Below are positions 4,496 to 27,631 of a stretch of DNA of 64,000 nt, piece by piece. The notes beneath the pieces were generated by a model that was given only the letters and a program-made list of their open reading frames with translations, ran no database searches and was not told where the DNA came from. The first letter of the stretch is position 1. Every line of letters begins with the position of its first letter. The DNA is taken from positions 1,550,001 to 1,614,000 of the forward strand of contig NZ_CP136624.1 of NCBI RefSeq assembly GCF_032917945.1, written 5' to 3'. The stretch comes from Bradyrhizobium sp. sBnM-33 (GTDB taxonomy: Bacteria > Pseudomonadota > Alphaproteobacteria > Rhizobiales > Xanthobacteraceae). Both the position numbers and the translations under genes were made by a program.

Positions 4496-5509
4496 TCACC
4501 CGATCTCGATCGCCACCTTCCCGAAATGCGCACCGCTCTCCATGTGCATAAAAGCGTCCCTGACCTGATCGAAACCGAACGTTCTGTCGATCACCGGCTT
4601 CATGCCGTTGACGGCAATCCCATCCGCCATCGCCTGGAGATCCTCGACCGATCCGACGGTGACGCCCTGCAGCCGCTGCTGCTGCATGACCATCAAGGGG
4701 AGCCGCAGGTCGGATGGCGGCGGCCCGGCGAGCACGCCGATGAACGCGATCGTGCCGCCGATCCTGGTCGCCCGGATCGATTCGTTCAGCGTACCGACCC
4801 CGCCGACCTCCACGACCAGGTCGACGCCGTGACCGCTCCATTCGCGGGCTTTCTTCCCCCAATCGGGCGTCGTCTTGTAGTTCAAGGTATAGTCGGCGCC
4901 GAGCTGCTTGAGACGTTCGATCTTCGCGTCGCTGGATGAGGTTGCGATGACGCGCGCGCCGCACATTTTGGCGAACTGAACTGCGAACAGGGATACGCCC
5001 CCGGTCCCCTGCGTCAGAACGGTTTGACCGGGCTTCACGCCGCCGAGCTTGACGATCGCGCTCCAGGCCGTGAGCCCGGCGCAGGGAAGCGCGGCGGCTT
5101 CGATATCGCTGAGGTGCTCCGGTGTTCGGACCAGCGCGTGTTTCGGAAAAACCCGATATTCGGCAAGGACCCCGTCCACCGCGCCGCCGAGGGCTGAGCG
5201 CATTTTTGCTTCGCTTGGTTCGCCGCCGATCCAGCCTTCGAAGAAGCTGCCGATGACGCGATCGCCCGGTGCGAATTCACGCACGCCCGGGCCGACCCGC
5301 TCGACCACGCCCGCGCCATCCGAAACCGGTACGAGCGGAAATTTCTGACGCGAGCCGTAGCCGCCCTTGACGGTGATGAGATCGCGATAGTTCAGCGTTG
5401 CCGCCCTGAGCCGGACGAGCACCTGGCCGTCGCCGGGCGTCGGCACAGGCTTATCCACGAGGGCAAGTCCATCGATTCCGCTCGGTCCCTGTAGCTCATA
5501 ACATTTCAA
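4496..5509 (-). CDS. MDR-family NAD(P)-dependent oxidoreductase (zinc-type alcohol dehydrogenase or quinone oxidoreductase-like)
   Basis: This 337-residue medium-chain dehydrogenase/reductase has a GroES-like N-terminal domain (residues about 1-125, with LNYRDLITVKGGYG and PVSDGAGVVERVGPGV) and a Rossmann domain with TQGTGGVSLFAVQFAKMCGA near residue 165. The N-terminal region lacks the Cys/His set that binds the catalytic zinc in true alcohol dehydrogenases, so a quinone-oxidoreductase or enoyl-reductase-like NAD(P)H activity is likelier. It is the last gene of the long minus-strand cluster, 73 bp after the flavin reductase gene, and may process a late intermediate of that pathway. Confidence 0.85.
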   Translation of the reverse strand: MKCYELQGPSGIDGLALVDKPVPTPGDGQVLVRLRAATLNYRDLITVKGGYGSRQKFPLVPVSDGAGVVERVGPGVREFAPGDRVIGSFFEGWIGGEPSEAKMRSALGGAVDGVLAEYRVFPKHALVRTPEHLSDIEAAALPCAGLTAWSAIVKLGGVKPGQTVLTQGTGGVSLFAVQFAKMCGARVIATSSSDAKIERLKQLGADYTLNYKTTPDWGKKAREWSGHGVDLVVEVGGVGTLNESIRATRIGGTIAFIGVLAGPPPSDLRLPLMVMQQQRLQGVTVGSVEDLQAMADGIAVNGMKPVIDRTFGFDQVRDAFMHMESGAHFGKVAIEIG

Positions 5510-5582
5510 CGGAAGTCTCCTTTGATGCGGTCCGGTACGCGCAATATTGCCGCAAATGTTCCGGTTCCGCCAACCTTGCGGG

Positions 5583-6209
5583 TCAGAATCGCGCAGCCAT
5601 CTCGGCCAGCCGCCGATGTGCGCCTTCGCGTGCCGCCCGGATCGGCTCGACCGGCCCGGTCGTCGGCCCGATCGGCACGAAACGCACGTTGCTGACGCCG
5701 ATGAAGCGGAGCGCCTCGCGCAGGTAGGGCGTCGCCATGTCGATGCGGCCGCGGTTCATGCCGGTGACGAAGTCGCTGCCGCTGGCGAGAATGATGACCG
5801 TCGGCCGGTCCTTGAACAAAGGCAAATAGCCTTGCGCCGGATCGAAGCGGAACGCCAGCCCGGGCTGCGTGATCACGTCAATCCATTGTTTCAGCTTGTA
5901 GGGAACGCCAAAATTCCACATCGGCGTCGAGATCAGCACGCGATCGGCGAGCGCGAACCGGAGCGCGATACGCTCGGTGACCGCAAAGGCGTCGCGCTGT
6001 GAATCGGTGAAAGCCCGGCCATTAATGCGGGCATATTTGGCCTCCAACACGTAGCCTTCGAACTCCGGCAGGTGATCCCGCCACAGGTTCATCACGTCGA
6101 TGTCCCAGTCGGGCCGCGCTTGATGAAAGCGGTCGATAAAGACGCGCGCGCCGGCTGAAGATTCCGAATCCGCGCGCGGCGAGCAGCTCAGGTGAAAGAG
6201 TTTTGGCAT
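5583..6209 (-). CDS. FMN-dependent NADH:quinone oxidoreductase / azoreductase (AzoR-like)
   Basis: This 208-residue flavodoxin-fold protein starts with the LFHLSCSPRADSESSAG segment, which binds the FMN phosphate in AzoR. It also has the STPMWNFGVPYKLKQWIDVITQPGLAF stretch, the family hallmark in mid-protein. The family transfers two electrons from NAD(P)H to quinones or azo compounds. Its stop lies 13 bp after the preceding gene region, so it is co-transcribed with the SMP-30/isochorismatase fusion upstream. In this operon it could detoxify quinonoid intermediates; that is inference. Confidence 0.88.
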   Translation of the reverse strand: MPKLFHLSCSPRADSESSAGARVFIDRFHQARPDWDIDVMNLWRDHLPEFEGYVLEAKYARINGRAFTDSQRDAFAVTERIALRFALADRVLISTPMWNFGVPYKLKQWIDVITQPGLAFRFDPAQGYLPLFKDRPTVIILASGSDFVTGMNRGRIDMATPYLREALRFIGVSNVRFVPIGPTTGPVEPIRAAREGAHRRLAEMAARF

Positions 6210-6222
6210 GGCCGCGCCCTGG

Positions 6223-7800
6223 TCATCCTAATCCCCTGATAACCGCATCGGCGTTGGTGACGACGGCGACGTTCTGCATCGCAAAGTTGATCGAGGCGTT
6301 GTGCCAGTCTGCGTTCATGGTCGAGCAGCAGTCTTCCGGCACGATCATGAAGTAGCCCTTGTCAGCGCCGGTGCGGGCAGTGTGCTCGATCGACATGTTG
6401 GTCCAGGCGCCGGTGTTGATGATCATGTCGCGGCCGGTCGCCTTCAGGATGGTCTCCAGACGCGTGCCTTCCCAGGCGCTCATGCGCATCTTCTCGACCA
6501 CGAAATCGCCGGCGCGCGGCTCAAGCCCTGGCACTGGCGCCGCACCCCAGCTTCCACGCACCATCGCGCCGCTATCGACCAGGCCTTCGAACAAGGGAGC
6601 GTTGAGCGTGACGCCGGGCGCGCCAGGTTCGACGATGAACCAGACATGGATGATGATGACGCCGCGCGCCCGCGCGGCCTCGGCAAGGCGGCGGACATTG
6701 TCGACCACCCGCTGCTGGCGCGCATGGGCGGGCGAGCCGGAATCGGCGAATGCGCCACCCTCCATGATCACGTCGTTCTGCAAATCCTGAATGATCATCG
6801 CGCAGCGCCGCGGATCGAGCCGCATGTCGCCGCCGGCAAGTTGTGGTGAGGCAGGCGTGGCAGAGACGGTGTCAGGACCGGACGAGGTGCGGCCGCTCAT
6901 ATAGGGCTCGTGGCGCGGTCCGGCCCTGACCGGAATTGCATAGACCGAATGCGTGGCAGTCAGATAGAGCGTGCGAAAATCAGAGCCGCCCCAGGTGAGA
7001 TTGGCGACGAGTTCGGGCACGCGCACCTTGCCGAGCAATTCGCCTGATGGCGAATAGACCCAGACACCGCCGGGCGCCGTGACCCAGACATTGCCGCGCT
7101 GGTCGCACTTCATGCCGTCGGGCAGGCCGGGCTCGAGCTCGGAACGGATGCCGCTGGCGAATACGCGCGCGTTGGAGAGCGAGCCATCGGCTTCGACGTC
7201 GAAGGCGCGGATCAGCGCCTGCGTGGTGTCGTTGACGTAAAGCAGGCGCTCGTCGGGCGAGAAGCAGAGCCCATTGGGCTGATCGAAGAGGTGACGATCG
7301 ACGACGAGCTTCGGTGGGCCGCCGCCAGGCGGAACACGATAGACGCCCTGAAAGCCGAGCTGGCGCGGCCGTTCGACGCCGTAGACCGGCATGCGGCCAT
7401 ACCAGGGGTCGCTGAAATAGATCGCGCCGCTCGAATGCACGCAGACGTCGTTCGGGCTGTTGAGTTCCTGATTTTCGAAATGCGAGGCGATTACCTCGCG
7501 CCTTCCGTCGGGGCGTTCGCGGATCAATGACGAGGTGGCGTGCTCGCAGACGATCAGGTTGAGCTCGGCGTCATAGGTCATGCCGTTGCATTTGTTCGAC
7601 GGGCGTTTGACCTCGACGACACCACGTTTGGCGTCCCACCGCCGGCGCACGTCGGCCGGCATGTCCGAAAATAGCAGATAATGGAGGGTGGGGTGCCAGA
7701 TCGGTCCTTCCGTGAATTCAAAGCCTGTGCCGACCTGGCCGACCGGCGCATAGGGATCGATCAATGTCTCGAAGTCCGGGCGCAGCGTGACGTGCGTCAT
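6223..7800 (-). CDS. SMP-30/gluconolactonase - isochorismatase-like fusion protein
   Basis: This 525-residue protein joins two hydrolase domains. Residues about 10-300 form an SMP-30/gluconolactonase/LRE beta-propeller, with the metal-ligand region FEFTEGPIWHP, then SPNDVCVHSSGAIYFSDP and later LPDGMKCDQRGNVWVTAPGG. Residues about 326-525 form an isochorismatase-like cysteine-hydrolase domain. There the acidic residue is D339 (in MIIQDLQND) and the lysine K437 (in VVEKMRMSAW), but the usual nucleophile position reads TNMS: Ser470 replaces Cys (codon at 6391-6393). Known families would predict lactone opening followed by amide or N-C hydrolysis. With Ser at the nucleophile the second activity is uncertain. 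The gene sits 19 bp from the MBL-fold gene in the catabolic cluster. Confidence 0.88.
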   Translation of the reverse strand: MTHVTLRPDFETLIDPYAPVGQVGTGFEFTEGPIWHPTLHYLLFSDMPADVRRRWDAKRGVVEVKRPSNKCNGMTYDAELNLIVCEHATSSLIRERPDGRREVIASHFENQELNSPNDVCVHSSGAIYFSDPWYGRMPVYGVERPRQLGFQGVYRVPPGGGPPKLVVDRHLFDQPNGLCFSPDERLLYVNDTTQALIRAFDVEADGSLSNARVFASGIRSELEPGLPDGMKCDQRGNVWVTAPGGVWVYSPSGELLGKVRVPELVANLTWGGSDFRTLYLTATHSVYAIPVRAGPRHEPYMSGRTSSGPDTVSATPASPQLAGGDMRLDPRRCAMIIQDLQNDVIMEGGAFADSGSPAHARQQRVVDNVRRLAEAARARGVIIIHVWFIVEPGAPGVTLNAPLFEGLVDSGAMVRGSWGAAPVPGLEPRAGDFVVEKMRMSAWEGTRLETILKATGRDMIINTGAWTNMSIEHTARTGADKGYFMIVPEDCCSTMNADWHNASINFAMQNVAVVTNADAVIRGLG

Positions 7801-7819
7801 CGGTCGGTCCTTTCAGCGC

Positions 7820-8668
7820 TCAGGCCGGGAACCAGTGGCGTTGCGGCAAGCTCTGAACGATGGGGCCGGGCACTTGGTCGTGCAGCCGGCCGACCACCAT
7901 GCCGCCTTCGATCTTGGCCGGCCGGTCGTGGACCGGGAGCAGGTAGCGCGAGTTGCTCAGGAGCTTTTTGATGGCCGCCTTCTCGGCGCGCTTGCTGGTG
8001 CCGTGATTGCCCGTGGTGCGCGGCTCCCAATCATGGATTTCGTGGAAGGGATTCACGATCTGGTCGTTGAAATCGTAGATCACGTCGCCGCAGATGGTGG
8101 CGATGCCGTCGGCGGTGTGAACATGGATGTTCATCGAGCCTTCGGTGTGGGCGTTGGCGGCCTCGCAATAGACGCCCGGCATCAGCTCGATCGGGCCGGT
8201 CACTTCGAGATCGAGGAAGCGCAGTGCGCTCTTGGTGTGCAGGCGGTCGATCAGATGCTTGATATCGGGCGCCGGATATTGCGGATGCATCAGGCCGGAG
8301 ACGGAATATTCCAGCTCCTTGCGGTTGAGCACGACCGTCGTGTTCATCGGAAACAGATCGTCCTTGCCGGCATGATCGATGTGCAAATGGGTGTGGCAGA
8401 CGAAGCGGACGTCGCCCATGCGCACGCCGTGGCGCGCGAGCTGGTTCTCGATCATGTTCTCGTGGAACTGGAGCCCGCGCATGCCCAGCGTTTCCATGAT
8501 CTGGTTGGAGCGGTAGCCGGTGTCGATCACCACCGGATAGGGGCCGCCGACGATCAGGAAGCCGAGCGTCAGGACACGGCGGGTCCGGCCGCAATCGCGG
8601 CCGAGCACGAGAAAGCTCGATTCCAGTTCGATATCTCCATAGTCCAGGATCTTGATTTCAAGCGGCAT
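7820..8668 (-). CDS. N-acyl homoserine lactonase-like MBL-fold metallohydrolase
   Basis: This metallo-beta-lactamase-fold hydrolase of 282 residues has the zinc motif HTHLHIDHAG (HxHxDH) at about residues 110-119. A further His occurs in AANAHTEGSMNIHV, and a metal-bridging Asp in TICGDVIYDF. The order resembles the AiiA-type lactonase family. I chose the ATG at 8668 because GGGAGG lies just upstream, although the frame stays open to 8779. In this operon, beside an SMP-30 domain and an amidohydrolase, it more likely opens a ring lactone or thioester intermediate than quenches quorum sensing; that is inference. Confidence 0.85.
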   Translation of the reverse strand: MPLEIKILDYGDIELESSFLVLGRDCGRTRRVLTLGFLIVGGPYPVVIDTGYRSNQIMETLGMRGLQFHENMIENQLARHGVRMGDVRFVCHTHLHIDHAGKDDLFPMNTTVVLNRKELEYSVSGLMHPQYPAPDIKHLIDRLHTKSALRFLDLEVTGPIELMPGVYCEAANAHTEGSMNIHVHTADGIATICGDVIYDFNDQIVNPFHEIHDWEPRTTGNHGTSKRAEKAAIKKLLSNSRYLLPVHDRPAKIEGGMVVGRLHDQVPGPIVQSLPQRHWFPA

Positions 8669-8711: not shown

Positions 8712-9602
8712 TCATCGGTCAAGCCGATAGACGCGCGTGGCAGTCGTTCGCAGAACGGCGTCGCGCTGATCCGCGGCAAGCGAGGCTGTCGCGGCGAGGT
8801 AGGCGTCGATCAGTTCGCGATAGCTGGTCCAGAGTTTTTCGATCGGAAAATTTGAGCCGAACAGGCAGCGCTGGGCGCCGAAGATCGCGACCGTTTCGGT
8901 GACAACACCGGCTACGTGCGCCGGGTCGTTGCGGTGGATGAAGGTGCCGAGCCCGGAAAGCTTTGAGACGATGTTCGGGCAGGCCGCGAGCCGGGTCATC
9001 CCGGTGCGCCAGGCGGATCGACCCTGCGGCGAAAGGTCTTCCAGCATGCCGGCGTGCTGCAGGATGAAGGTTACATCGGGACAGGCTTCCGCGAGGCCTG
9101 CGGCATCTTCCATTTGCGGCGCGAACACCTGCAGATCGAAGCTGAAGCCATAATCGGCGAGCCGCGCGATGTTGCGGCGTATCTTCGGATCGGCGCAGAG
9201 GTCCGGTCGCGCGGCAAAACGATAGAGCGGGTTTTCGTGCCAATGCAGTTGCATGCGCACGCCGCGCACCAGCGGATAGCGCGCCAGACGATCAAGCTGC
9301 GGGCGGACATCATCGACGTTGAAGTCGGCATAGGAGACGATGGCGTGCGGCCAGCCATGGTCCTTTGCGGTCTCTTGCACCCAGGCCGTTTCGTCTTCGA
9401 AGCGATCGTTGGCCCAGTTGGTCTGCACGTAGACCGACCGCGTTACGCCGGAGCCTGCGAGGTCACCAAGATATTCCTGGATCGGATAGTCGCGGCGGAT
9501 CGGCTCATAGGGGCCAAAGATGCGCGGCTGCATCGGGCCGACAAGCCAGGGCAGGTCGGCCTGACGCCAGATGTGGTGATGAGCATCGACGATTTCGGTC
9601 AC
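8712..9602 (-). CDS. Amidohydrolase-2 family TIM-barrel hydrolase
   Basis: This 296-residue metal-dependent hydrolase belongs to the family of 2-pyrone-4,6-dicarboxylate lactonase and L-fuconolactonase. It starts with the metal motif VDAHHHIW (HxH). Later come a YVQTNWAND strand, a VRGVRMQLHWHEN segment, an LQHAGML strand and a GSNFPIEKLW motif carrying the C-terminal acidic or Asn ligand region. Its start codon overlaps the stop of the VWA gene (ATGA at 9599-9602). Family and context suggest hydrolysis of a cyclic ester or amide. Confidence 0.87.
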   Translation of the reverse strand: MTEIVDAHHHIWRQADLPWLVGPMQPRIFGPYEPIRRDYPIQEYLGDLAGSGVTRSVYVQTNWANDRFEDETAWVQETAKDHGWPHAIVSYADFNVDDVRPQLDRLARYPLVRGVRMQLHWHENPLYRFAARPDLCADPKIRRNIARLADYGFSFDLQVFAPQMEDAAGLAEACPDVTFILQHAGMLEDLSPQGRSAWRTGMTRLAACPNIVSKLSGLGTFIHRNDPAHVAGVVTETVAIFGAQRCLFGSNFPIEKLWTSYRELIDAYLAATASLAADQRDAVLRTTATRVYRLDR

Positions 9603-10717
9603 GCGGCCTTCCTTTGTCCGAGCGAGAGAACATGCGAGACGATCGCGGCTGTAGACCCGCCATCGACCAGATCATCCACGAAGCGCCTGATCGCGATCAG
9701 CGCTTCGGTCTGCGGCTGAAAGGTGGGGCCTGACGCCAGCGGCGTCAGCCAGCTCAGGCGCCAGGCGCGCCGCGACAGCTTTGCAACGGCGTCGCGTAGC
9801 GCGGAGGGATCGCCACGTTCGAGGCCGTCGGAGACGATCACGACGGCGGCGCCACGCGCATAGCTGCCGAACCGCGGTACCGCCAGGAACGCCTGCAGTG
9901 CGTCGCCGATGCGGGTGCCGCCGTCCCAGTCGCTGACGAGATGCGCAGCGGCGAACAGCGCCTGCTCGCGGCGCTTGAGACGGAGCGCGCGGGTGACGCG
10001 GGTGAGGCGGGTGCCGAAGGTGAACACTTCGACGTTGGGAGCCGCGTGCGACAGCGCATGCGCGAGCTTCATGTTATCGTCGGTACGCCCCTTCATCGAG
10101 CCGGAGACGTCGATCAACAGCAGGATCTTGCGCGGCCGGGTGCGCCGCTTCAGCCGGCCGAGCCGCAGCACTTCGCCATCGTTGCGCACGCTCTCTCGCA
10201 AGGTTCGCCGCAGGTCGGCCCAAGGGCCGCGCCGGGCGCGCCTGCGCCGGTGGCCGCGCCGCCGTGGCAGCCGCGCCGGCGCCTCGCGAGAGAGCTTTCG
10301 CAAGACATCGCCGGTTGCGCCCGGCACGAAGCGCCGTTCGACCAGCGCTTCCGCGCGGGCTGCGGCTAGTCCGGATTCGTGGGCTTCATCGGCGAACAAT
10401 GTTTCGTCCTCGCCGCGGCCTTCCTCCTGCAGGCGAACCACTTCCTCATCTTCTGCGCCCGCCCGATCGACCGCTTCGCTTCCAAGGAAATGGATGTCGA
10501 ACAGCCGGTCGTAGGTCGCGCGCCGCTCGGGTGGCGGCGCGAGCGTTGCCAATCCAGCCTGCCGAATGGCTTCGAGGCTGCGCGGACCCAGCAGTTCGAT
10601 GGCGGCCAGGAACGTAGTCGTCTGTTCCGGCGCCACGGCAAAGCCGTTGGTGCGCAGCAGTGCGACAAAGGACACGAAGACGCCGGCAGCGCGCGGCAAT
10701 TGAGGTTCGTCGCTCAC
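9599..10717 (-). CDS. CoxE-like VWA domain-containing protein
   Basis: This 372-residue cytoplasmic protein has a C-terminal von Willebrand A domain with the MIDAS motif DVSGS at residues 203-207. An Arg-rich segment (PRRRGHRRRRARRG, about 151-164) and an acidic stretch (DEEVVRLQEEGRGEDE) precede it. With the MoxR ATPase next door it matches the CoxD/CoxE pair, which in CO dehydrogenase systems helps assemble the metal centre of the large subunit. It overlaps its neighbours by 4 bp on both sides, so it is translationally coupled. The likely client is the molybdo-enzyme encoded just upstream. Confidence 0.88.
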   Translation of the reverse strand: MSDEPQLPRAAGVFVSFVALLRTNGFAVAPEQTTTFLAAIELLGPRSLEAIRQAGLATLAPPPERRATYDRLFDIHFLGSEAVDRAGAEDEEVVRLQEEGRGEDETLFADEAHESGLAAARAEALVERRFVPGATGDVLRKLSREAPARLPRRRGHRRRRARRGPWADLRRTLRESVRNDGEVLRLGRLKRRTRPRKILLLIDVSGSMKGRTDDNMKLAHALSHAAPNVEVFTFGTRLTRVTRALRLKRREQALFAAAHLVSDWDGGTRIGDALQAFLAVPRFGSYARGAAVVIVSDGLERGDPSALRDAVAKLSRRAWRLSWLTPLASGPTFQPQTEALIAIRRFVDDLVDGGSTAAIVSHVLSLGQRKAA

Positions 10718-11595
10718 GCGGCAGCCTCCGCAATGAGGGCGTCGAGCCGGCCGGAGATGAAGGTGAGATCCTCCTCGTCCTTCAGTGCAACCCCGATCGA
10801 GCGTTTGAACGCATCCGGCCAGCGGACGCCGCGCGCGTGCAGCAGTGTGGCGGCTTCGGCCCAGTCCACGGCTTCCGCGATTCCGGGCGCCTTGCTGAGC
10901 GGTTCGCGCCGGAGTTTGCCGACGGCGGCGACGACCGCGCGCGCGGTCGCTTCGGCGACACTGGAAGCCCGCATCATGACAATGCGCGCCTCGCGCTCGG
11001 CGGTGGGATAATCGATCCAGTGATAGACGCAGCGGCGGCGCAACGCCTCGTGCAGGTCACGGGTGCGATTTGAGGTCAGCACGACGACCGGGCGCTCGGC
11101 GGCGCGAACGGTGCCGCGCTCGGGAATGGAAATCTGGAAGTCGGAGAGGAATTCCAGCAGAAAGGCCTCGAACTCCTGGTCGGCGCGGTCGATCTCATCG
11201 ATCAGCAGCACAGTGGAGTCAGGCGCGCGCAACGAGGCGAGCATCGGCCGCTCGATCAGGAAGGTCTCGCCATAGATATCGATTGTTTCCTCGCCGGCCT
11301 GGCGGATCGCGAGCATCTGGCGCGGATAGTTCCACTCGTAGAGCGCGGCGGCTGCGTCGATGCCTTCATAGCATTGCAACCGGATCAAGCGGCGGCCGAG
11401 CACGGCGGCGATCGCTTTTGCGGCTTCCGTCTTGCCGACGCCGGGCGCGCCTTCCAGCAGCAGCGGCTTGCCGAGCGCGAGCGCCAGATAGGCTGCTGTC
11501 GCGAGGCCGTCGTCGGCGAGATAGTACGCCGTCCGCAGGGCCCGCTCCAGCGCCTCCGGGCTGTCGATGCCGACGATGTTGCCGCGGACCGTCAT
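10714..11595 (-). CDS. CoxD-like MoxR-family AAA+ ATPase
   Basis: This 293-residue AAA+ ATPase has Walker A GAPGVGKT at residues 49-56, Walker B LLIDEID at 129-135, and a sensor region VVLTSNRTRDLHEALRRRCVYHW near residue 170. MoxR/CoxD proteins act as chaperones with a VWA partner. CoxD of Oligotropha is needed to complete the Mo-Cu active site. Here the client is probably the xanthine-dehydrogenase-like subunit, so the job may be sulfuration or final folding; that part is inference. The gene lies 8 bp after the split large-subunit genes. Confidence 0.9.
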   Translation of the reverse strand: MTVRGNIVGIDSPEALERALRTAYYLADDGLATAAYLALALGKPLLLEGAPGVGKTEAAKAIAAVLGRRLIRLQCYEGIDAAAALYEWNYPRQMLAIRQAGEETIDIYGETFLIERPMLASLRAPDSTVLLIDEIDRADQEFEAFLLEFLSDFQISIPERGTVRAAERPVVVLTSNRTRDLHEALRRRCVYHWIDYPTAEREARIVMMRASSVAEATARAVVAAVGKLRREPLSKAPGIAEAVDWAEAATLLHARGVRWPDAFKRSIGVALKDEEDLTFISGRLDALIAEAAA

Positions 11596-12626: not shown

Positions 12627-12628
12627 GG

Positions 12629-14217: not shown

Positions 14218-14697
14218 TTAGGCGCGTGCGCGACCACTCGCAGCGGCGGCGATCACGGCGTTGATGATCGGCTCGTATCCGGTGCAGCGGCAGATGTTGC
14301 CGGAGATCGCCTCAATGACCTCGGCGCGGCTCGGAGACGGATTGCGATCGAGCAGCGCCTTCGCCGCCATCAGCATGCCCGGCGTGCAGTAGCCGCATTG
14401 GGCCGCGAACTGCTCCATAAAGGCGCGTTGCAGCGGATGCAGGTTGGGACCGTCCTTCAGCCCGTCGAGCGTCTCGACGGAGCGTCCGGCCACCGACTCC
14501 GCCAACGTCAGGCAGGAGAGATGCAGTTCGCCATCGATCAGCACGCTGCAGGCGCCGCAGCCGCCCTGGCCGCAGCCGAATTTCGGCGTCATGTCGCCGA
14601 TCTGTTCGCGGAGCGCGACCAGCAGATTGACGCCGCCGTCGACGAATAGCGCGACATCGCGGCCATTGTGACGAAACTGGAGCGGGGTCTTGGTCAT
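14218..14697 (-). CDS. 2Fe-2S small subunit of a molybdenum hydroxylase (CoxS-like)
   Basis: This 159-residue electron-transfer subunit has both expected clusters. The N-terminal plant-ferredoxin-type 2Fe-2S site uses C42, C47, C50 (GCGQGGCGAC) and C62. The C-terminal helical site uses C101, C104 (CGYCTPG), C136 and C138 (CRCTGY). Length and cysteine spacing match CoxS/HcrC-type subunits. It passes electrons from the molybdopterin centre to the FAD subunit, whose gene lies 6 bp upstream. Confidence 0.95.
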   Translation of the reverse strand: MTKTPLQFRHNGRDVALFVDGGVNLLVALREQIGDMTPKFGCGQGGCGACSVLIDGELHLSCLTLAESVAGRSVETLDGLKDGPNLHPLQRAFMEQFAAQCGYCTPGMLMAAKALLDRNPSPSRAEVIEAISGNICRCTGYEPIINAVIAAAASGRARA

Positions 14698-15538: not shown

Positions 15539-15982
15539 TCATGCAGCCTCCTTCAGGTGCCGGCGAATGGCATCGAAGCCGGCTTGATAGATCTGTTCCG
15601 CGACCATTTGAGTCAGCCGCTCGGCATCGGCGGGCCGCGCGGTGAACCTGGATTCCCAGTGCCAGAAGGTGCGGTCGCCGTCGGTGACCGGGAGCAGGCG
15701 TACGTGTGCGACATAGTTGAACATCGGGATCGGCGTATCGAGCAGGCAGTAGCTGAAGGTCTGTTCGAGGTCCGAAAGTGCCAGCAGTTGCTCGCGCAGC
15801 TCCGAGCCGTCCTGCAGCTTGAAACGTCTGATACAGCCGATCTTGTCGGCGGCCTGTGCGCGTTCGATCGTGCTGGTGGCGACCTCAGGATGCCAGCGGT
15901 CGTGGCCGTTGAAATCGCGCAGCACGTTCCAGACCGCGGTTGTCGGCGCGTCGAGGATCGTGCTCTTGACGATATGCGGCAC
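15539..15982 (-). CDS. SRPBCC-family protein (CoxG/polyketide cyclase-like), copy 2
   Basis: This 147-residue START/SRPBCC-fold protein begins MPHIVKSTILDAPTTAVWNVLRDFNGHDRWHPE, which is the standard family start, and keeps the later FWHWESRF strand. CoxG proteins anchor CO dehydrogenase to the membrane in Oligotropha; other members bind hydrophobic ligands or act as cyclases. A paralogous gene lies directly upstream with 1 bp between them, so the pair probably arose by duplication and may form a heterodimer. Confidence 0.85.
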   Translation of the reverse strand: MPHIVKSTILDAPTTAVWNVLRDFNGHDRWHPEVATSTIERAQAADKIGCIRRFKLQDGSELREQLLALSDLEQTFSYCLLDTPIPMFNYVAHVRLLPVTDGDRTFWHWESRFTARPADAERLTQMVAEQIYQAGFDAIRRHLKEAA

Positions 15983-19349: not shown

Positions 19350-20183
19350 TTACCGCGCGCCGATCGCCTTGAATTTACGAACCTGTTCCGTGAGCGCCCG
19401 CTCCACCGGCAGGCGCTCCATCGACGATGCGCCGTAAAAGCCGTGGCACTTGCGCGTGTGTTTCATGATGAAGTCAGCGTCGGCGGGCTCGGCGATCGGG
19501 CCGCCATGGGCCAGCACCAATATGTCCGGATTGACGCTGAGCGCCGCCGCAGCCCAGGTGTCGATCTGTTCCGGGCAATCTTCGAGCTTCGGCGCGGTAT
19601 GCGCGCCGATCGCACCGCCTGTGGTCAGGCCGAGGTGACAGACGATGATGTCAGCGCCCGCGATCGCCATTGCCGCGGCTTCGCTCTCGCTGAACACATA
19701 GGGCGTCGTCAGCATGTCCTTGTCGCGCGCTTTGGAGATCATGTCGATCTCCAGCGCATAGGACATTCCGGTTTCCTCGAGGTTGGCGCGGAACACGCCG
19801 TCGATCAGGCCGACGGTCGGAAAGTTCTGCACGCCGGCAAAGCCCAGCGCCTTCAACTGATCGAGAAAACTATCCATGTCGCGGAACGGGTCGGTGCCGT
19901 TGACCCCCGCCAATACCGGCGTCCGGGTGACGACGGGGAGCACTTCGCCGGCCATCTCCAGCACGATCGCGTTGGCGTCGCCATAGGGCATCAGGCCGGC
20001 GAGGGAGCCGCGTCCTGCCATGCGGTAGCGGCCGGAATTGTAGATCACGATCAGATCGACGCCGCCGGCTTCCTCGCATTTGGCCGATAGGCCAGTGCCC
20101 GCCCCGCCGCCAACGATCGGCTCCCCCTTGGCGGCCATGTTGCGAAATTTCTTCAGGATGGCCGAACGTTCGAACTTCGCCAT
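19350..20183 (-). CDS. Phosphoenolpyruvate hydrolase-like TIM-barrel protein (Tm-1 C-terminal domain family)
   Basis: This 277-residue protein belongs to the PEP_hydrolase/TIM-barrel signal-transduction family, recognisable from [34 protein letters not shown] at the start, [13 protein letters not shown] in the middle and [13 protein letters not shown] later. In tomato Tm-1 this domain forms the C-terminal half of a two-domain protein whose N-terminal half is the Tm-1-like ATP-binding domain. Here that other half is encoded by the gene two bases upstream (TGA at 20186-20188, ATG at 20181-20183). The biochemical role in bacteria is unknown. The frame extends upstream to 20792 but only over the neighbouring gene. 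Confidence 0.85.
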
Positions 20184-20185
20184 GA

Positions 20186-22423
20186 TCACCTCGCGACTTT
20201 CCGACGTGTCCCCGGGCGTCCGACCAGAGGACGGAGCGCGTTGACGATGGCGGATGCAAATTCCGGTTCGTTGATGTGGCGCCTGATGCGGATGAGCTGG
20301 CGATTGCCGGTCTGGCGCACGCTGCGTTCCAGCGCGGTAAACAGCGCTGCATCCGCTTCCGGATCCCAGAACGGCTGGCCCGGCGCGTCGAGCGCGGAGA
20401 CGCCGCCTTCCGGGAGGAAGAAGCGTACCGGCCCGTCCATCCGGTTGAGTTTTTCGCCGATCCAACGTCCCATACGATCGTTCTCTTCCGGTGTGGTGCG
20501 CATCAAGGTCACCTGCGGATTGTGAACGTGGAACTTGCGCTGACGATAGCGCTCGGGAATGGTGTCGGGTGCGCCGAAATTGACCATGTCGAGCGCACCG
20601 ACGGAGCCGATGAAGGGCAGGCGGCTGCGGATGATCGCGCCGAAGCGGTCGTCCGTGGCGGGGAATACACCGCCCATCAGGAGATCGCAGACTTCCGTCG
20701 TCGTGAGATCGACAACGGCCGCGAGCATTCCGGAATCGACCAGCTTTTCCATCGAGCGGCCGCCGACGCCGGTAGCGTGGAAGACGAGGCATTCGAAATC
20801 GCTGCGCAGATCGGCCGTAATCTTCTGCACGGCGGGCGTCGTCACGCCGAACATGGTGATGCCGACAGCGGGTAACGCAACCCGCGCGTTACGCTCGGCC
20901 GCGCTTTGATTGTCGAGACGCGCCTTCACCATGCCGGCGATGGCGTTGGCGCCGTTGGCGAGCACGGCACGCGAGATCGAATTGAGGCCCTGCACGTCGG
21001 TGACCGAATACATCATCGTGATATCGGCAGGTCCGACATAAGGACCGACATCTCCCGACGCGACGGATGAGATGATCAGTTTCGGCACGCCGACGGGAAG
21101 GCCGCGCATGCCCGGCGCGACCAGCGAGGCGCCGCCGGAGCCGCCCGCCGAAATGATGCCTGCGACATTACCCTGACGGCGCAGCCAATTGGCGAAGGCG
21201 TCGGCCATCGCGGTCACCGACGCGCCGCGGTCCGAGCCGAACACGCTCGATCCGCCGCGCCCATGATTGAGCGCGATTTCCTGGGCGGAGACGTCGCAGG
21301 TGGAGAGCTTGCCGCTGGTGGAGACGTCGACCAGGCGCGTCCGCAAGCCGTGTCCGGCGATCACGTCGCGAATGAAGCGCAACTCCTCGCCCTTAGTATC
21401 AAGCGTGCCGACGACAAGAACGACCGGTGGCCCGGACGCGGTTTGAACGACGGCACCGGCTTGGCGTTTCTGCCGTGCGGCGTCTTCAATCCGGGTGATG
21501 CCCGTCGAAAGCGTGCGCGCGGCGGCCTCGATGCGCGCAATCGGCGCCGGCTGCGACCAGCGCGTCGGCAGCGTGGGATTGGAGATATAGATGCGGATTG
21601 GCGCTGTGCTCGACGCGCGCGGCGGTGCGGGATGCGCGTTGGCTTCGGCGCCTGCATCCGCGCCTTCGATATCCGCGTCCGGCTCGGCGTGGACTCCAAC
21701 GACTCCAACACCAAGCAGCCGTTGTTGCAGCTCGCGGTCGGCGGCAAGTCGCGCGGAGTCGATGATGCGATTGATGCGGCCATTGACCATGATCGCGACG
21801 TTCTTCGAAATCGCCGTGGCGACGCCGATATTCTGCTCGATCACCAGCACCGACATCTCGCCGTCTTCGGCAAGCCGCACCAGCATTTCTTCGACCTGGG
21901 CGACGATGACAGGCGCAAGACCTTCGGTCGGCTCGTCCATGATGAGGAGATGCGGATTGGTCAGAAGCGCGCGCGAGATCGCCAGCATCTGCTGTTCGCC
22001 GCCCGAGAGCTGGCCGCCGCCATGGTCCTTGCGCTCGGCAAGGCGAGGAAAGGTCTCGTAGACACGGTCGATCGTCCAGACGCCGCGCCGCATCCCGGCC
22101 GCCAGCCGCAGATGTTCGTCCACGCTGAGCGAGCGCCACAGCCGTCGCCCTTGCGGAACGTAGCCGACGCCGAGCTGCGCGATCCGCGCCGGGCTAAGGC
22201 GGGTGATATCCTCGCCGCGGACGCGAACCGAACCGCCGCTCGCCCGCAGCAAGCCCATGATGGTCTTGCACAGCGTGGTCTTGCCCATGCCGTTGCGGCC
22301 GACCACCGAGAACACGCCGGAATCCAGCGTCAGCTCGACTCCCTGCAGCGCATGGGAATGGCCGTAGTAAACGTCGAGGCCCCGGACTTCGAGGGCAGGC
22401 GCTGAACGGCGGATCTCACTCAT
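20186..22423 (-). CDS. LivF-type ABC ATPase fused to a Tm-1-like (UPF0261) ATP-binding domain
   Basis: This protein of 745 residues has two parts. Residues 1-245 form a LivF/UrtE-type ABC ATPase: Walker A GRNGMGKT at 42-49, signature LSGGEQQ at 139-145, Walker [10 protein letters not shown] at 161-169. After an Ala/Pro-rich linker, residues about 334-745 form a Tm-1-like ATP-binding domain, with [10 protein letters not shown] at 338-347 and [16 protein letters not shown] later. I chose the ATG at 22423, which overlaps the LivG-type gene by 8 bp, since the longer frame adds only 25 residues unrelated to ABC proteins. The fusion ties an importer ATPase to a metabolic or signalling domain of unknown function. 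Confidence 0.87.
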
Positions 22424-23198
22424 GGCCGGCCCCGAGATAGAGCTCCTGCACTTCCGGGTCGGCTTCGATCTCGTGCGGCAGGCCTTCCTTGAAGACACGG
22501 CCGTTGTGCATCATCGTGACGCTTTCGACGACGCGAAGCGCGACATCCATGTCGTGCTCGATGATGATGTAGCCGATATGGGCGGGCAGCGACGTCAAGA
22601 TATCGATCAGTTCGCGCCGCTCGGTGGGGGACAGGCCCGCGGCCGGTTCGTCGAACAGGATAAAACGGGGCGCGCCGGCGAGCGCGAGCGCGATCTCGAG
22701 CTGCCGCTGCTGGCCGTGCGCGAGCTCCGCGACCCGCTGCTCCCTGACCGATGTCAGGTGCACCGCCTGGATCAGCGCCTCTGTCGCATGCATGAGGGCA
22801 TCGTTCGCCCCCGGGCGCAGCGGAGAAAATCGTCCGCGGGAAACGCCGCGGCAGGCGAGATAGACATTGTCCCTCACTGTGAGGCCGGGAAACAGCGCTG
22901 ATATCTGATAGGTGCGGCGCAAGCCGCGCCTGATACGTTCGTAAGGCGGGAAGTGGGTAATGTCCTCGCCGAAGAAGCGGATGGTGCCGGAGGACGGCGG
23001 AAAGTCGCCGGTCACGCAATTGAACAGCGTCGTTTTGCCGGCGCCGTTGGAGCCGAGCACGGCGCGGCGTTCGCCGGGGCGAACGGTGATGGTGACGTCG
23101 GTCAGGGCAGCGAGCGCGCCGAACAGCCGCGTCACGCCGCGCAGCTCCAGCGCGGCGCCGGCACCGACGGCCGAAAAGCGTGGCGCGGCGCTATCCAT
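22416..23198 (-). CDS. Liv-type ABC transporter ATP-binding protein (LivG-like)
   Basis: This 260-residue ATPase has Walker A GSNGAGKT at residues 49-56, the LivG-style signature [16 protein letters not shown], and Walker [20 protein letters not shown]. The GQQR signature variant is typical of LivG/UrtD. It pairs with the LivF-type fusion downstream and with the two permeases upstream to give a complete HAAT-family importer. Its start overlaps the LivM-like stop by 8 bp. Confidence 0.92.
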
Positions 23199-24273
23199 GA
23201 CCGTGGCCTCCGCTTGCGCGTTTTTCTGGTACGGCCGTGCGACGGCGCCATCGCTCCCAGAGACCGATCACGCCGTCCGACGACCAGAACACGATGGCGA
23301 GGAAGCCGAGGCCGATCAGCAGCCGGAAGCGATTGCCGTCGAGCCCTAACTTGACCAGCAGATCGAGCGCGAAGGTACGCAGGATGACGAAGATGAAGGC
23401 GCCGATGAAGGGCCCGACGGGGCGGGTGATGCCGCCGACCACGGCGATGATCAGAATATCAATGCAGGCGCCGACGCTGACCGAGCCGGGCGAGATCTGC
23501 CGGTAGTTCCAGACCTGCAGGACGCCGCCGAGTGCGGCGATGAAGGCCGCGAACGCGTAGGCTGCCACGCGGTGCGCGTTGCCATTATAGCCGAGCGCCG
23601 CCATGCGGCGGGGATTGTCGCGCACGCCCTGCAGCGCGAGCCCGAACGGAGCGCGCGAGACATATTGAACGGCGAAATAGCAAAACGCCGCGACGCCCAG
23701 CGTGACGTAGTAGAAGGGAATGTCGGAGCGCCAGTCGACACCCCAGAATTTCGGCGTGGCGATGGTGTTGATGCCGGTGTGGCCGCCGAAGATCGGCCAG
23801 TTCTGGTTGGTGAAATAGTAGAAGGCCGCGCCGATCGCGAGCGTGATCATGATGGTGTAGATGCCCTCGGTGCGCACCGCGAGCGCGCCGCCGAGCGTGC
23901 CGAAGACGGTTGCGAGCACCAGCGCCATCGGCGTTGCAAGCCACCACGGCCAGCCGAGGCTGATATTGGTGTTGGCGCTCATGCCGAACACCGCGACCAT
24001 GTAGGCGGCAAAGCCGGCGACGGTGAGCTGCATCAGGCTGACCATGCCGCCATAGCCCGCCAGGAACATCAGGCTGAGGGCGACGGTCCCGAGGATCAAC
24101 GTGGTGGCGAAGATCTCGATCAGGAAAAAGGCGTTAGCGATGAACGGCATGATCAAGAGGATCACGGCGACCAGCCAGACAGCCGGCTTGTTGAATTCCG
24201 GCCACGCCAACAACGCCGCGCGCGCTCCTGCCGGCTGACTGGTCTGAGGATGCGCGCCCTGGACCAACGACAT
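23191..24273 (-). CDS. Liv-type ABC transporter permease (LivM-like)
   Basis: This 360-residue polytopic membrane protein has about ten hydrophobic segments. It shows the BPD_transp_2 hallmarks ALRTEGIYTIMITLAIGAAFYY-like (here AVRTEGIYTIMITLA) and ALQGVRDNPRRMAALGYN, the ATPase-coupling loop. Together with the LivH-like permease next to it, it forms the membrane channel for branched-chain amino acid, urea or aromatic-acid type substrates. The nearby oxidative genes favour an aromatic or heterocyclic substrate; that is inference. Confidence 0.92.
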   Translation of the reverse strand: MSLVQGAHPQTSQPAGARAALLAWPEFNKPAVWLVAVILLIMPFIANAFFLIEIFATTLILGTVALSLMFLAGYGGMVSLMQLTVAGFAAYMVAVFGMSANTNISLGWPWWLATPMALVLATVFGTLGGALAVRTEGIYTIMITLAIGAAFYYFTNQNWPIFGGHTGINTIATPKFWGVDWRSDIPFYYVTLGVAAFCYFAVQYVSRAPFGLALQGVRDNPRRMAALGYNGNAHRVAAYAFAAFIAALGGVLQVWNYRQISPGSVSVGACIDILIIAVVGGITRPVGPFIGAFIFVILRTFALDLLVKLGLDGNRFRLLIGLGFLAIVFWSSDGVIGLWERWRRRTAVPEKRASGGHGHG

Positions 24274-24274
24274 G

Positions 24275-25285
24275 TCAGCGCCTCGCCAATAGGCCCTGCG
24301 GTCGCAGCGCCAGCACCAGCACCATGATGAGGAAGGTTACGACGATTGCATAAGTCGGGATGTAGACAGAGCCGAGCTGCTCGGCGAGGCCGATGATGAC
24401 GGCGCCCAGCGCCGCGCCCGGAATCGAGCCCATGCCGCCGACGATGACGACGACGAGGGAAGCCAGAAGAAATCGGGTGTCCTCGCCGGGCGAAATCGAC
24501 TGAAAGGTTCCGCCGACGACGCCCGCGATGCCGGCAAGGCCCGCGCCGAGTGCGAACACGGCAACAAAGACGAGCTGGATCGGCACGCCGGTCGCAGCAA
24601 GCATGTCGCGGTCGTCGACTCCGGCGCGCACCATCATGCCGACGCGGGTTCGATTGAGCGCCAGCCACATCACGATGCCGATTACGACGGCGGCGACGAA
24701 GATCACGAGCCGCACCATCGGGTAGCGCAGGTAGACCGCCTCGCCCGACGATTTGACTGCGGTGACCAGCGGCAATTCGATTGGGCCGACCAGCCAACTC
24801 GGGGTCTGGATCTGATAGAAATCGCCGCCGAATACCCACAGCATCAGGTCCGCAAACACGATCGAGAGCCCGATCGTGACCATGGTCTGGCGCAAATCCT
24901 CGCCCTCCATGCGACGGAAGACGACGATTTGCAGGACGATGCCGACCAGCGCCACACCGAGAAACGCGATGATGAAACCGAGCACCCATGAGCCGGTCCA
25001 GACGCTGATGGCGTAACCGATGTAGCCGCCGAACAGATAGAGCGAACCATGCGCCAGATTGACGTTGCGCATCAGGCCGAAGATGAGCGTGAAGCCGCTG
25101 GCCACCAGGAAGTAAAGGCTGCCGAGCGTGACGCCGTTGAACAGGGCGTTGAGAAAGACGCGCTTCCTGCCGATCGCCTCTTCGAGTCCGGGTGGCCAGA
25201 CGGCAAGGATCAGCCACAACAGCACCGCGACAGCGATCAGCAGTATCAGCGCCCACGCCGGATGGCGTTCGATGAATCTTGTCAC
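24275..25285 (-). CDS. Liv-type ABC transporter permease (LivH-like)
   Basis: This 336-residue permease shows the LivH features GVTLGSLYFLVASGFTLIFGLMRNVNLAHG near residue 50 and ALNRTRVGMMVRAGVDDRDMLAATG near residue 210, with eight or more membrane spans. The stop lies one base before the LivM-like start. It is the first transporter-membrane gene after the AraC regulator, with a 129-bp gap, so an internal promoter is possible here. Confidence 0.92.
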   Translation of the reverse strand: MTRFIERHPAWALILLIAVAVLLWLILAVWPPGLEEAIGRKRVFLNALFNGVTLGSLYFLVASGFTLIFGLMRNVNLAHGSLYLFGGYIGYAISVWTGSWVLGFIIAFLGVALVGIVLQIVVFRRMEGEDLRQTMVTIGLSIVFADLMLWVFGGDFYQIQTPSWLVGPIELPLVTAVKSSGEAVYLRYPMVRLVIFVAAVVIGIVMWLALNRTRVGMMVRAGVDDRDMLAATGVPIQLVFVAVFALGAGLAGIAGVVGGTFQSISPGEDTRFLLASLVVVIVGGMGSIPGAALGAVIIGLAEQLGSVYIPTYAIVVTFLIMVLVLALRPQGLLARR

Positions 25286-25414: not shown

Positions 25415-26242
25415 TCAGGGGCGCAAGACTTTGGCGGCGCGGCGGTATTCAGTCGGCGCCATCCCGACATTGGCCGCGAAGAAGCGGGTGAAACCGCTCT
25501 GGGAGGAGAAGCCGAGATCGAAGCCGATATCGGCGATCGGCACTTCGGTCGCGACCAGGGCGTCCAGTGCCTGTTCCATGATCAGTGTATTGAGATAGAG
25601 GTTTGGCGTGACGCCGGTCTGGGTTCGGAACAGCCGGTAGAAGTGCGGGCGCGACAGCCCAGAGGCCCGCGCGATCGAATCCAGCTCGATCTCGGCGCCC
25701 GGGCTTTCGGACATCAGCTTGATGGATTTGCGGACGCGAAAGTCAGTGACGGCGGTGGCGGTCCGTGTCTCCTGCACCGGCTCGGGCGTCTGCCAGCTTT
25801 CGTCATAACAACTGTCGATCAACTGCCTGAGTTCGCAGTCGAGGCTGCTCAGCGAAGGCGCGCCGCACACCAGCGCGGCAGAGCGGCGAATATGCCTGTC
25901 GAGCGTGGCCGTACGCTTGAAGCAGGTGCGGCCAAACCGCAGGCTGTGGGCGCGGGCCGCATCGGGGGCGAACCATTCGGCGTTGACGTAAAGGACGAAG
26001 AAGATCGCCCCGTTCTCCGTGTCGGTCGGGACAAAATTGTGCGGTTCCCAAGGGTTGACGGCAACAATGGAGTCTTCCGCGAGCAGCCATCGCTCATCGC
26101 ACACATCAATGCGCGCTGGCGTTCCACCGACATGAAATATCAGGTGCCCTTCGCGATGCGCGTGCATGTTGAAGGGGCGGTTCAACTGATAGACCGTCGC
26201 GCGACCGAACCGGCCGTGGAAGACGGCGAGAGCCTTGCTCAT
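25415..26242 (-). CDS. AraC-family transcriptional regulator with N-terminal cupin domain
   Basis: This 275-residue regulator has a cupin-like sensor domain (residues about 10-95: NMHAHREGHLIFHVGG and NPWEPHNFVP) and a C-terminal double HTH (residues about 175-270: IARASGLSRPHFYRLFRTQTGVTPNLYLNTL, DIGFDLGFSSQSGFTRFFAANVGMAPTEYRR). Lying between the binding-protein gene and the permease genes, on the same strand, it probably activates this catabolic operon in response to the substrate. Confidence 0.92.
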   Translation of the reverse strand: MSKALAVFHGRFGRATVYQLNRPFNMHAHREGHLIFHVGGTPARIDVCDERWLLAEDSIVAVNPWEPHNFVPTDTENGAIFFVLYVNAEWFAPDAARAHSLRFGRTCFKRTATLDRHIRRSAALVCGAPSLSSLDCELRQLIDSCYDESWQTPEPVQETRTATAVTDFRVRKSIKLMSESPGAEIELDSIARASGLSRPHFYRLFRTQTGVTPNLYLNTLIMEQALDALVATEVPIADIGFDLGFSSQSGFTRFFAANVGMAPTEYRRAAKVLRP

Positions 26243-26337
26243 GCCTTCCCTCCCGCGGGATGTTCTTGTCTTTTCAATGAGCGTTCAACATCCGCCGCGA
26301 GAATGCAAGGGTAGATCACATCCTGCCGGGTCGCGCC

Positions 26338-26376
26338 CGGGCTCCGGCGTGACCGGGGCCCGTTCGCAAATGCGAA
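26338..26376 (-). terminator. Two adjacent hairpins after the Liv-type binding-protein gene
   Basis: Four bases beyond the stop codon lies a perfect 6-bp stem (TTCGCA-AA-TGCGAA, 26363-26376). A 10-bp GC-rich stem with one G-T pair and a 5-base loop follows directly (26338-26362). There is no T-run, so it may stabilise the binding-protein mRNA or attenuate read-through instead of fully ending transcription. Confidence 0.5.
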
Positions 26377-26380
26377 GAGG

Positions 26381-27631
26381 TCAGTACTTCTTGCACTCCG
26401 GAACCGTCCGGCTCGGCAGCCCGATCTTGGAGAAAACTGCCGGGTCGTAGCCGAGCGTCTGGTTCACGTTCGGAATGACCTTCACGACCTTGCTGAACAA
26501 GGCGCCCTTGCCGTCGTCCACCACCTCGGTGACGAAGTTGGTTCCGATAGCCTGGCGGTTGGAGTCGAGCTTGATCTTGCCATTGGGCGCGTCGAGCTCG
26601 ATCTTGGCGAGGGCTTCCTTAAGCTTCGCCTGGTTGTTGCTGAGGTCGCCATTGACCTGACGCAGTCCGAGGATCAGCGCCATCGTCGAGTTGTAGTAGT
26701 TGGTGGCGAGCAGCGACGGGCTCGGGAACCGCTTGTTCGGTGGGAAGGCGTCCTGATACGCTTTCACGAACTTCTGCCAGCCTGGATCCTCCCAGGTGTC
26801 GGCCTGGCCACTCGCGGCGATGGTGCCGATGAGGGCATTTTTGGCATTGCCCTTGGCCGAAAGAATGGTCTGGTCGACCATGATCGAGCCGCCCATCAGA
26901 CGGGCCTTGCCGCCAGCCTGCTGATACTGGTTTAGGAAATTGACGGCGTCGGCGCCGCCGAGGCCGAGATAGATCGCATCGACGTCGTCGGGAAGAGCAG
27001 CAATGACGGAGGCGAAGTCCTTGGTGCCGAGCGGCACCCATTGCCGGTTCGTGACCTGTCCGCCAGCACCGCAGAACTCGAGCACCAGCCCGAACACCTG
27101 CGTATAGATGAAGGAATAATCGTCCCCGACCGTCGCAATCTTGCGATAGCCTTTCGTATCATAGGCATACTTGCCCAACCCGACCTGCCATTGCGCGCCG
27201 TCCATGTTGTAGCGGAAGAAGTTCGGCGCCGGGTCGACGTAAGTGGTCTCCTGCGCGCCGGAAGCGGCATTGATGAAAGTCAGCTCGGGGCGCGTCTTGG
27301 CAAAGTTCTTCACCGCAATGCCTTCGTCACCGGACAGGGGTGAAAGCAGGATCTGGACCTTATCCTGTTCGATCAGCTTGCGTACGGCACGAACGGCGGA
27401 GTCGGGCGTCGCATCCGTGGAGGCGATGATGAATTCGATTTCCTTGTCGCCGACCTTCTTGCCGAGCGTGTTGATCGCGGTCTGGTGGCCGCGGATTCCG
27501 TCTTCGCCGAGCACCGTATAAGTGCCTTCGAGGGTCGCGGTGACGCCGACCCTGATTTTCTCTTGAGCTAAGGCGGCGCCGGAAAGCAACAGACTGCTCA
27601 GCGCGACCAGTCCCGCACAGCTTTTAAACAT
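26381..27631 (-). CDS. Liv-type ABC transporter substrate-binding protein
   Basis: This periplasmic binding protein of 416 residues starts with a signal peptide (MFKSCAGLVALSSLLLSGAALAQEK, likely cleaved after ALAQ or ALA). The mature part is a Peripla_BP_6 domain: VTATLEGTYTVLGEDGIRG, then KLIEQDKVQILLSPLSGDEG and later KIATVGDDYSFIYTQVFG. I chose the ATG at 27631 because GGGAGGGG stands just upstream and it begins the signal peptide. It is the first gene of the long minus-strand cluster and captures the substrate for the Liv-type importer. Hairpins after the gene could uncouple its high expression from that of the downstream genes. Confidence 0.93.
   Translation of the reverse strand: MFKSCAGLVALSSLLLSGAALAQEKIRVGVTATLEGTYTVLGEDGIRGHQTAINTLGKKVGDKEIEFIIASTDATPDSAVRAVRKLIEQDKVQILLSPLSGDEGIAVKNFAKTRPELTFINAASGAQETTYVDPAPNFFRYNMDGAQWQVGLGKYAYDTKGYRKIATVGDDYSFIYTQVFGLVLEFCGAGGQVTNRQWVPLGTKDFASVIAALPDDVDAIYLGLGGADAVNFLNQYQQAGGKARLMGGSIMVDQTILSAKGNAKNALIGTIAASGQADTWEDPGWQKFVKAYQDAFPPNKRFPSPSLLATNYYNSTMALILGLRQVNGDLSNNQAKLKEALAKIELDAPNGKIKLDSNRQAIGTNFVTEVVDDGKGALFSKVVKVIPNVNQTLGYDPAVFSKIGLPSRTVPECKKY

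Follow-up and report, generated by a model that had tools for sequence, protein, structure and literature searches.

The window analysed here is a stretch of 64,000 nucleotides from Bradyrhizobium sp. sBnM-33 (contig NZ_CP136624.1, positions 1,550,001 to 1,614,000), lying within a 9.18-Mb single-contig genome, and it carries a gene cluster built on a two-piece molybdenum hydroxylase, an ATP-binding cassette (ABC) importer and a long flotillin. According to our gene calls, with refined starts, the cluster consists of 21 genes, all on the minus strand and running from 27631 down to 4496. They encode, from 5′ to 3′, a periplasmic binding protein, an AraC-family regulator, the permeases and ATPases of a Liv-type importer, a Tm-1-like pair, the flotillin, two SRPBCC proteins, the hydroxylase subunits M, S, L1 and L2, a CoxD/CoxE-like pair, an amidohydrolase, a metallo-beta-lactamase (MBL) fold protein, a SMP-30/isochorismatase fusion, a flavodoxin and an MDR dehydrogenase. 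An earlier interpretation made from the DNA letters alone (the sequence-only reading) had described 21 co-directional minus-strand genes with junctions that mostly overlap or are shorter than 75 bp, and both points hold: at 18 of the 20 junctions the genes overlap or lie no more than 73 bp apart (the extremes being an 8-bp overlap and a gap of 73 bp), and the other two, between the binding protein and AraC and between AraC and LivH, measure 138 and 129 bp. Some 19 of these genes form a block, presumably for the import and oxidation of a small molecule, whose gene order is kept across many alpha-proteobacteria.

L1, the first half of the molybdopterin subunit, served as bait for all loci, so its own presence in them is by construction. 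The search covered 60 related genomes (orthologue threshold E below 1e-170), 385 genomes of the class, 8 of them with a match at 1e-110, and 398 of the phylum, 16 of them with a match; a scan of species-representative genomes gave 328 confirmed relatives, of which the best 80 were used. Neighbourhoods were examined in 20 genomes, a subset of those with a match, which supplied 21 regions besides the window. In total, 106 regions found with L1 were compared for gene order, and 89 of them carry the cluster flotillin, a figure that includes the window itself and the duplicate pairs G218=L109 and G747=L095. Contig ends cut many of the loci short (AraC was judgeable in 18, LivH in 36 and the SMP-30 fusion in 72), and the gene calls in the loci are our own choice of open reading frames, among which wrong-frame ones occur. 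The genes from AraC to the SMP-30/isochorismatase fusion are collinear on a single strand in all 89 flotillin-bearing loci. No gene is missing between the outermost cluster genes in 79 of them, and the losses concern the MBL protein (6), the amidohydrolase (3) and the PEP_hydrolase-like protein (2). Among the named hosts are Paracoccaceae, Roseobacteraceae, Rhizobiaceae, Phyllobacteriaceae, Roseomonadaceae, Elioraeaceae and Amorphaceae. Moreover, the full-length flotillin, the SMP-30 fusion and a fusion of LivF with UPF0261 occur in an identical set of 31 of the 60 related genomes, made up of 27 of the 36 genomes of the genus (own included) plus G048, G054, G056 and G059. L1 orthologues are found in the same 31 genomes and in G050, while the remaining nine same-genus genomes are without the flotillin, both fusions and L1 alike. 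The sequence-only reading had proposed checking whether its blocks ever occur together elsewhere; this was done, and the collinear loci and matching distributions show that they do. The last two genes, coding for a Flavodoxin_2 protein resembling NAD(P)H-quinone reductases and azoreductases (5583..6209, minus strand) and a zinc-type MDR dehydrogenase (4496..5509, minus strand), lie outside the conserved unit. They were found in 6 and 3 of the 21 non-window regions, respectively, all of the same genus. The sequence-only reading had included both in its pathway, the former as a flavin reductase; a place for them in the conserved pathway is not supported.

A smaller core, comprising M, S, L1, L2, CoxD, CoxE and the amidohydrolase, is found without flotillin in G486, G740, G050, L153 (Sinorhizobium) and L154 (the actinomycete Nonomuraea), and is accompanied by AraC and one SRPBCC gene in G486, G740 and L153. 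The archaeon Salinigranum (L155) has the four hydroxylase genes M, S, L1 and L2; in G255 and G348 the first three are present, and L2 was matched in one G255 region only. In the haloarchaeal locus, genes for a cyclase-family protein and an SRPBCC protein come after the split-L core. In L153 (strain BG8, 20001-22384), L1 is broken into two frames, by pseudogenization or a sequencing error. One record titled Oceanobacillus (L135) has the alpha-proteobacterial block in full and falls within that clade, so the assembly is likely mislabelled or contaminated.

The importer genes open the cluster. The binding protein (26381..27631, minus strand, as are all the cluster genes that follow) matches Peripla_BP_6 and also lies upstream of AraC in regions from other families; the AraC-family regulator (25415..26242) is present in 18/18 judgeable loci. 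Two PF02653 permeases of LivH type (24275..25285; 36/36 loci) and LivM type (23191..24273; 78/78) and a LivG-type ATPase (22416..23198; 82/82) come next. The Liv permeases and ATPases read from the sequence are thus borne out as a complete Liv-type ABC importer, with binding protein, two permeases and two ATPases, but the second ATPase is only the N-terminal part of a 745-amino-acid fusion (20186..22423), in which a LivF-type ATPase is joined through a variable linker to UPF0261, the Tm-1 N-terminal domain. The two are fused in 82 of the 83 loci with UPF0261, the exception (L072) being cut by a contig end. Among 8,000 scored, 7,643 relatives of the fusion protein passed 1e-100, and both domains were present in all of the 120 listed; the nearest named ones are from Bradyrhizobium, for example B. 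retamae at 96% identity. Adjoining the UPF0261 domain is a PEP_hydrolase-like TIM barrel of the Tm-1 C-terminal domain type (19350..20183; 82/84 loci), which completes a Tm-1-like pair. Tomato Tm-1 and its bacterial homologues likewise have these two domains side by side; the system described here differs in the fusion of UPF0261 to a LivF-type ATPase, and the available part of the text of PMC5028733 makes no mention of "ABC".

The hydroxylase genes occupy the centre of the cluster. The FAD-binding M subunit (14704..15522) and the [2Fe-2S] S subunit (14218..14697) are present in 89/89 loci, and the molybdopterin subunit is split, as the sequence-only reading had it, into L1 (12629..14206), with hammerhead and MoCoBD_1 domains and a disordered Pro/Ala-rich tail, and L2 (11604..12626), with MoCoBD_2, separated by 2 bp. 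Matches to the M, S and molybdopterin-binding domains place the enzyme in the xanthine oxidase family. The strict pattern GxGE is present in 79/83 L2 sequences. The best PDB sequence match of L1 is 3hrd (5e-61), presumably the nicotinate dehydrogenase of Eubacterium barkeri with its split large subunit, and the two share a molybdopterin subunit made as two proteins. The 425 residues of 3hrd chain A leave no room for a tail, we know of no flotillin cluster for that enzyme, and the hydroxylase described here, itself predicted from its genes, is not assigned nicotinate as a substrate. The genome of the window (G000) has 27 MoCoBD_1 matches, which indicates many other molybdenum hydroxylases, although a few of these matches are two pieces of one gene. 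Downstream of L2 lie a CoxD-like AAA+ ATPase of MoxR type (10714..11595; 79/79 loci) and a CoxE-like VWA protein (9599..10717; 77/77). The pair of genes upstream of M (15984..16421 and 15539..15982, hereafter SRPBCC a and b; 89/89 loci each) had been called CoxG; this identity was rejected, as PF10604 is the only family that either protein matches at E<=1e-3, and PF06240, which we take to be the CoxG family, is not matched. A model of SRPBCC a (predicted local distance difference test score, pLDDT, 94.6) has YPO0625, XoxI and PYL-type entries as its nearest Foldseek matches, with no CoxG entry among the 50 listed of 1,569 matches.

Three hydrolase genes follow. The amidohydrolase-2 (8712..9602; 73/76 loci), a hydrolase common even to the actinomycete core, has L-fucono-1,5-lactonase as its nearest curated model, at 104 bits against a cut-off of 400. 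The MBL protein (7820..8668; 66/72 loci) is nearest to AiiA and 4-pyridoxolactonase, both far below cut-off, and HxHxDH is kept in 70/70 of these proteins. The SMP-30/gluconolactonase and isochorismatase domains make up a single 525-amino-acid fusion (6223..7800), fused in 76 of 77 loci. The isochorismatase domain does not have the catalytic Cys of cysteine hydrolases of its family and cannot be taken for an ordinary cysteine amidase: at the Cys place, located by alignment to RutB (8bkd), Ser is found in all 72 motif-matching proteins of the 78 looked at. Entry 8bll, presumably an engineered variant, has the same Ser. In other lineages the loci carry further genes, for an iron alcohol dehydrogenase, an aldehyde dehydrogenase, SDRs and a FAH-type hydrolase. 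We scored the iron-containing alcohol dehydrogenases that lie between the binding protein and AraC in seven loci against curated models. The Shinella protein alone (1/7) exceeded the cut-off of the 4-hydroxybutyrate dehydrogenase model (523.7 of 500 bits); for four others this model was the sole match at E<=1e-60, below cut-off (210-371 bits), the Yoonia protein reached 85.7 bits and that of G012 had no match at E<=1e-60. The best match to this model in the window's own genome (187.5 bits) lies outside the window. The FAH proteins of three loci reached 399-412 of 500 bits on the 2,4-didehydro-3-deoxy-L-rhamnonate hydrolase model, all below cut-off. Judging by these sequence scores, the added genes hint at hydroxy-acid or lactone chemistry, compatible with a lower pathway of that kind, and no more.

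Between the Tm-1-like pair and the SRPBCC genes lies the flotillin gene (16431..19325), coding for 964 amino acids with an SPFH/Band_7 domain, an extended coil and a Flot domain. Full-length cluster flotillins (n=76) have 856-1311 amino acids and are conserved mainly at both ends, and the coil has an 11-residue period that is strongest at 44. They share SPFH and Flot domains with YqiK-type bacterial flotillins, a name that relatives bear in the catalogue, but they are longer than the other, more distant flotillin matches of the relatives, whose open frames span 574-753 amino acids. We also inspected the sequences of five flotillin relatives for fusions to neighbouring proteins. Three of the five (P0121, P0123 and P0133) are frame-disturbed, with out-of-frame stretches running into the neighbour genes, and were rejected as proof of contact; the SRPBCC or PEP_hydrolase domains listed for P0123 and P0133 were attributed to frame-shifted contigs.

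The feature that may link enzyme and flotillin is the C-terminal tail of L1. Ninety-six L1 genes are closed at the 3′ end; in 87 of them a Pro/Ala-rich stretch leads to a final RRR or RKR, an ending seen in none of 1,219 other cluster proteins. Counted from a fixed anchor, the tail has a median length of 96 residues (P 21%, A 16%), and residues 469-525 of the AlphaFold model have pLDDT below 50 and are predicted to be disordered. The flotillin is on the contig in 79 of the 87 tailed cases, and the other 8 contigs end before its place. Nine L1 proteins (G486, G740, G050, G255a, G255b, G348, L153, L154 and L155) are tail-less, and the cluster flotillin was not found in their regions, of which L153 is frame-broken and those of G255 sit on short contigs. 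In the window the tail closes with RFSSVFGTRRR (codons at 12632..12664, minus strand), and across the tailed L1 genes the closing peptide is mostly RFSSxxGxRRR; RFSS-type ends account for 63 of the 83 distinct tail ends. Within these 63, the residues R, F, S, S and G are the same throughout but encoded by varying codons (five for R, two for F, four and five for the serines, four for G), so this part of the peptide is kept at the protein level. The tail was also considered as a target of CoxD/E, a role that was rejected because CoxD/E-like genes sit beside tail-less L1 as well (G486, G740, G050 and L154).

We propose that the cluster is a catabolic operon coupled to import, and that its molybdenum hydroxylase is tethered to a membrane site organised by the flotillin, a reading that could equally well prove right or wrong. 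The Liv-type importer would take up a small cyclic compound, and the xanthine-oxidase-family hydroxylase (M, S and two-piece L), served by the CoxD/CoxE-like pair, would oxidise it, probably by molybdenum-dependent hydroxylation next to a ring heteroatom or at an aldehyde-like carbon. The lactonase-type hydrolases would open the product, the amidohydrolase perhaps attacking a lactone or lactam, with the MBL protein and the SMP-30 domain possibly acting in later steps; the Tm-1-like pair, whose UPF0261 half is fused to the importer ATPase, would work on the substrate close to the membrane. The hydroxylase itself would be held at the flotillin-organised patch via the disordered tail, with the C-terminal peptide as a putative docking motif; flotillins are able to form cages seated in the membrane (PMC11260169). 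The gene block, its co-inheritance, the fusions and the protein-level conservation of the tail are observed, and the tether, its partner and the order of reactions are what we infer from the gene content and the tail. The sequence-only reading had ordered the genes into uptake, membrane-organised hydroxylation and ring opening. The gene set fits that outline, and the tail lends circumstantial support to its membrane-organised step, but CoxG as the identity of the SRPBCC pair, an ordinary cysteine amidase, and a part for the flavodoxin and MDR proteins in the conserved pathway are not supported.

Several observations weigh against a tether to the flotillin. The tail end is not uniform: 20 of its 83 distinct versions deviate, for example RFISGTRRR and SPFVSGTRRR, and some lack the leading RF. 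The ribosome-binding site of L2 accounts for part of the final RRR, and confidence in the L1 model is moderate (mean pLDDT 69). In a quick tree, which leaves out L153 (a fragment) and five same-genus rows, all 82 tailed rows fall within one 93-row clade with support 99. The other 11 rows of that clade, which are unlabelled, are each open at a contig end, and the 8 closed tail-less rows lie outside it. A count of label changes on the tree gave 10, 7 of them forced, and treats the 11 contig-cut L1 as tail-less. A single gain is enough, and therefore the tie between tail and flotillin does not amount to many independent events; going by the tree, both may go back to one joint gain. Finally, the tail shares its distribution over clusters with SRPBCC b, the LivF-UPF0261 fusion, the MBL protein and the SMP-30 fusion, any of which could equally be its partner.

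The explanation that survives best beside the tether is a soluble pathway, in which the flotillin would only protect or order the membrane (or quinones) against a hydrophobic or redox-active substrate, and the tail would bind lipid or RNA unspecifically or mainly carry the translation signal of L2. We regard it as a real possibility, if not a probable one. The last two or three Arg codons of L1 are mostly AGG, AGG, likely the ribosome-binding site of L2, a Shine-Dalgarno-like tetramer lies within the tail in 78 of 83 cases, and the tail end is Arg-rich; moreover, other lineages have the core hydroxylase but lack both flotillin and tail. The final Arg run is under two constraints, since AGG AGG probably also serves for ribosome binding at L2. 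However, RFSS and the G are kept despite their varied codons, RRR is kept in G207 and G375 though the Shine-Dalgarno sequence there comes after the stop, and tail-less clusters, which must also translate L2, show no such tail. A pure ribosome-binding-site artefact is therefore ruled out for RFSS and G, and partly accepted for RRR.

Alternatively, the docking partner of the tail may be the LivF-UPF0261/importer complex or SRPBCC b, in an importer-hydroxylase channel for which the flotillin would be just a platform. This is unlikely in our judgement, even though both candidate partners are among the proteins that track the tail and the otherwise variable LivF-UPF0261 linker has a conserved peptide of its own, YxSNPxxPTRWS, in 82 aligned sequences. 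As for the flotillin-tethered operon that we favour, a bolder form of it, which we consider rather improbable, would make the long flotillin a membrane-seated cage or catabolic compartment, with the L1 peptide as a cargo-loading tag and LivF-UPF0261 feeding in the substrate. In humans, flotillins assemble into a cage on the membrane that measures 32 nm in width and 22 nm in height (PMC11260169). Encapsulins offer an analogy only. Their cargo enzymes end in a short conserved peptide on a flexible linker and are encoded beside the scaffold gene, features that L1 resembles, but no shell protein is among the Pfam matches of the cluster, and peptide docking is putative here.

A carbon monoxide dehydrogenase-type energy system is very improbable. 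The M, S, L, CoxD-like and CoxE-like genes recall the cox cluster of Oligotropha carboxidovorans, but on the CoxL model L1 and L2 score 169 and 111 of 991 bits, far below cut-off, and all 106 L1 proteins longer than 440 amino acids have RGFG in place of the CO dehydrogenase signature AYxCSFR. Model scores and motif together rule this reading out, and the many catabolic and import genes also speak against it. The cluster differs further from cox in having a split, xanthine-oxidase-type L, no CoxG and no CoxF that we could see. What the cox system offers is precedent for the proposed operon: according to PMC4240915, the Oligotropha CoxD and CoxE homologues are needed for maturation of the related enzyme, and its CO dehydrogenase is brought to the membrane, as is proposed here for the hydroxylase. 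A chance neighbourhood of unrelated same-strand operons, to which the variable last two genes and the occurrence of the smaller core with other neighbours might point, is refuted from AraC to the SMP-30 fusion by the collinearity and the matching presence and absence over 60 genomes, and is practically untenable.

The 3′ neighbour of the cluster is a convergent DUF2066 gene (3538-4458, plus strand) and its 5′ neighbour a divergent SDR gene (28060-28827, plus strand); promoter and terminator scans at both cluster ends gave nothing above shuffled sequences. Just upstream, on the same strand as the cluster, lies a pair of tripartite ATP-independent periplasmic transporter genes (DctP and DctM, 28978-31379, minus strand), and a set of a MacB/FtsX-type permease, an ABC ATPase and an HlyD-type adaptor occupies 77-3047 (minus strand). 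The window also holds a Calvin-cycle run (33197-41270, plus strand) with fructose-bisphosphatase, transketolase, class II aldolase, RuBisCO large subunit and an AAA protein, presumably of CbbX type, and its LysR regulator (32081-33061, minus strand).

We found no description of this cluster in the open-access PMC literature, and the block marks a common alpha-proteobacterial catabolic route that is undescribed in the literature searched. Through the fusion to an importer ATPase, the UPF0261/Tm-1 domain, which is poorly understood, also acquires a metabolic context. To our knowledge, few bacterial flotillins have a defined client; a flotillin kept in fixed order beside one tailed enzyme would offer a mutable handle for asking whether SPFH proteins recruit enzymes.

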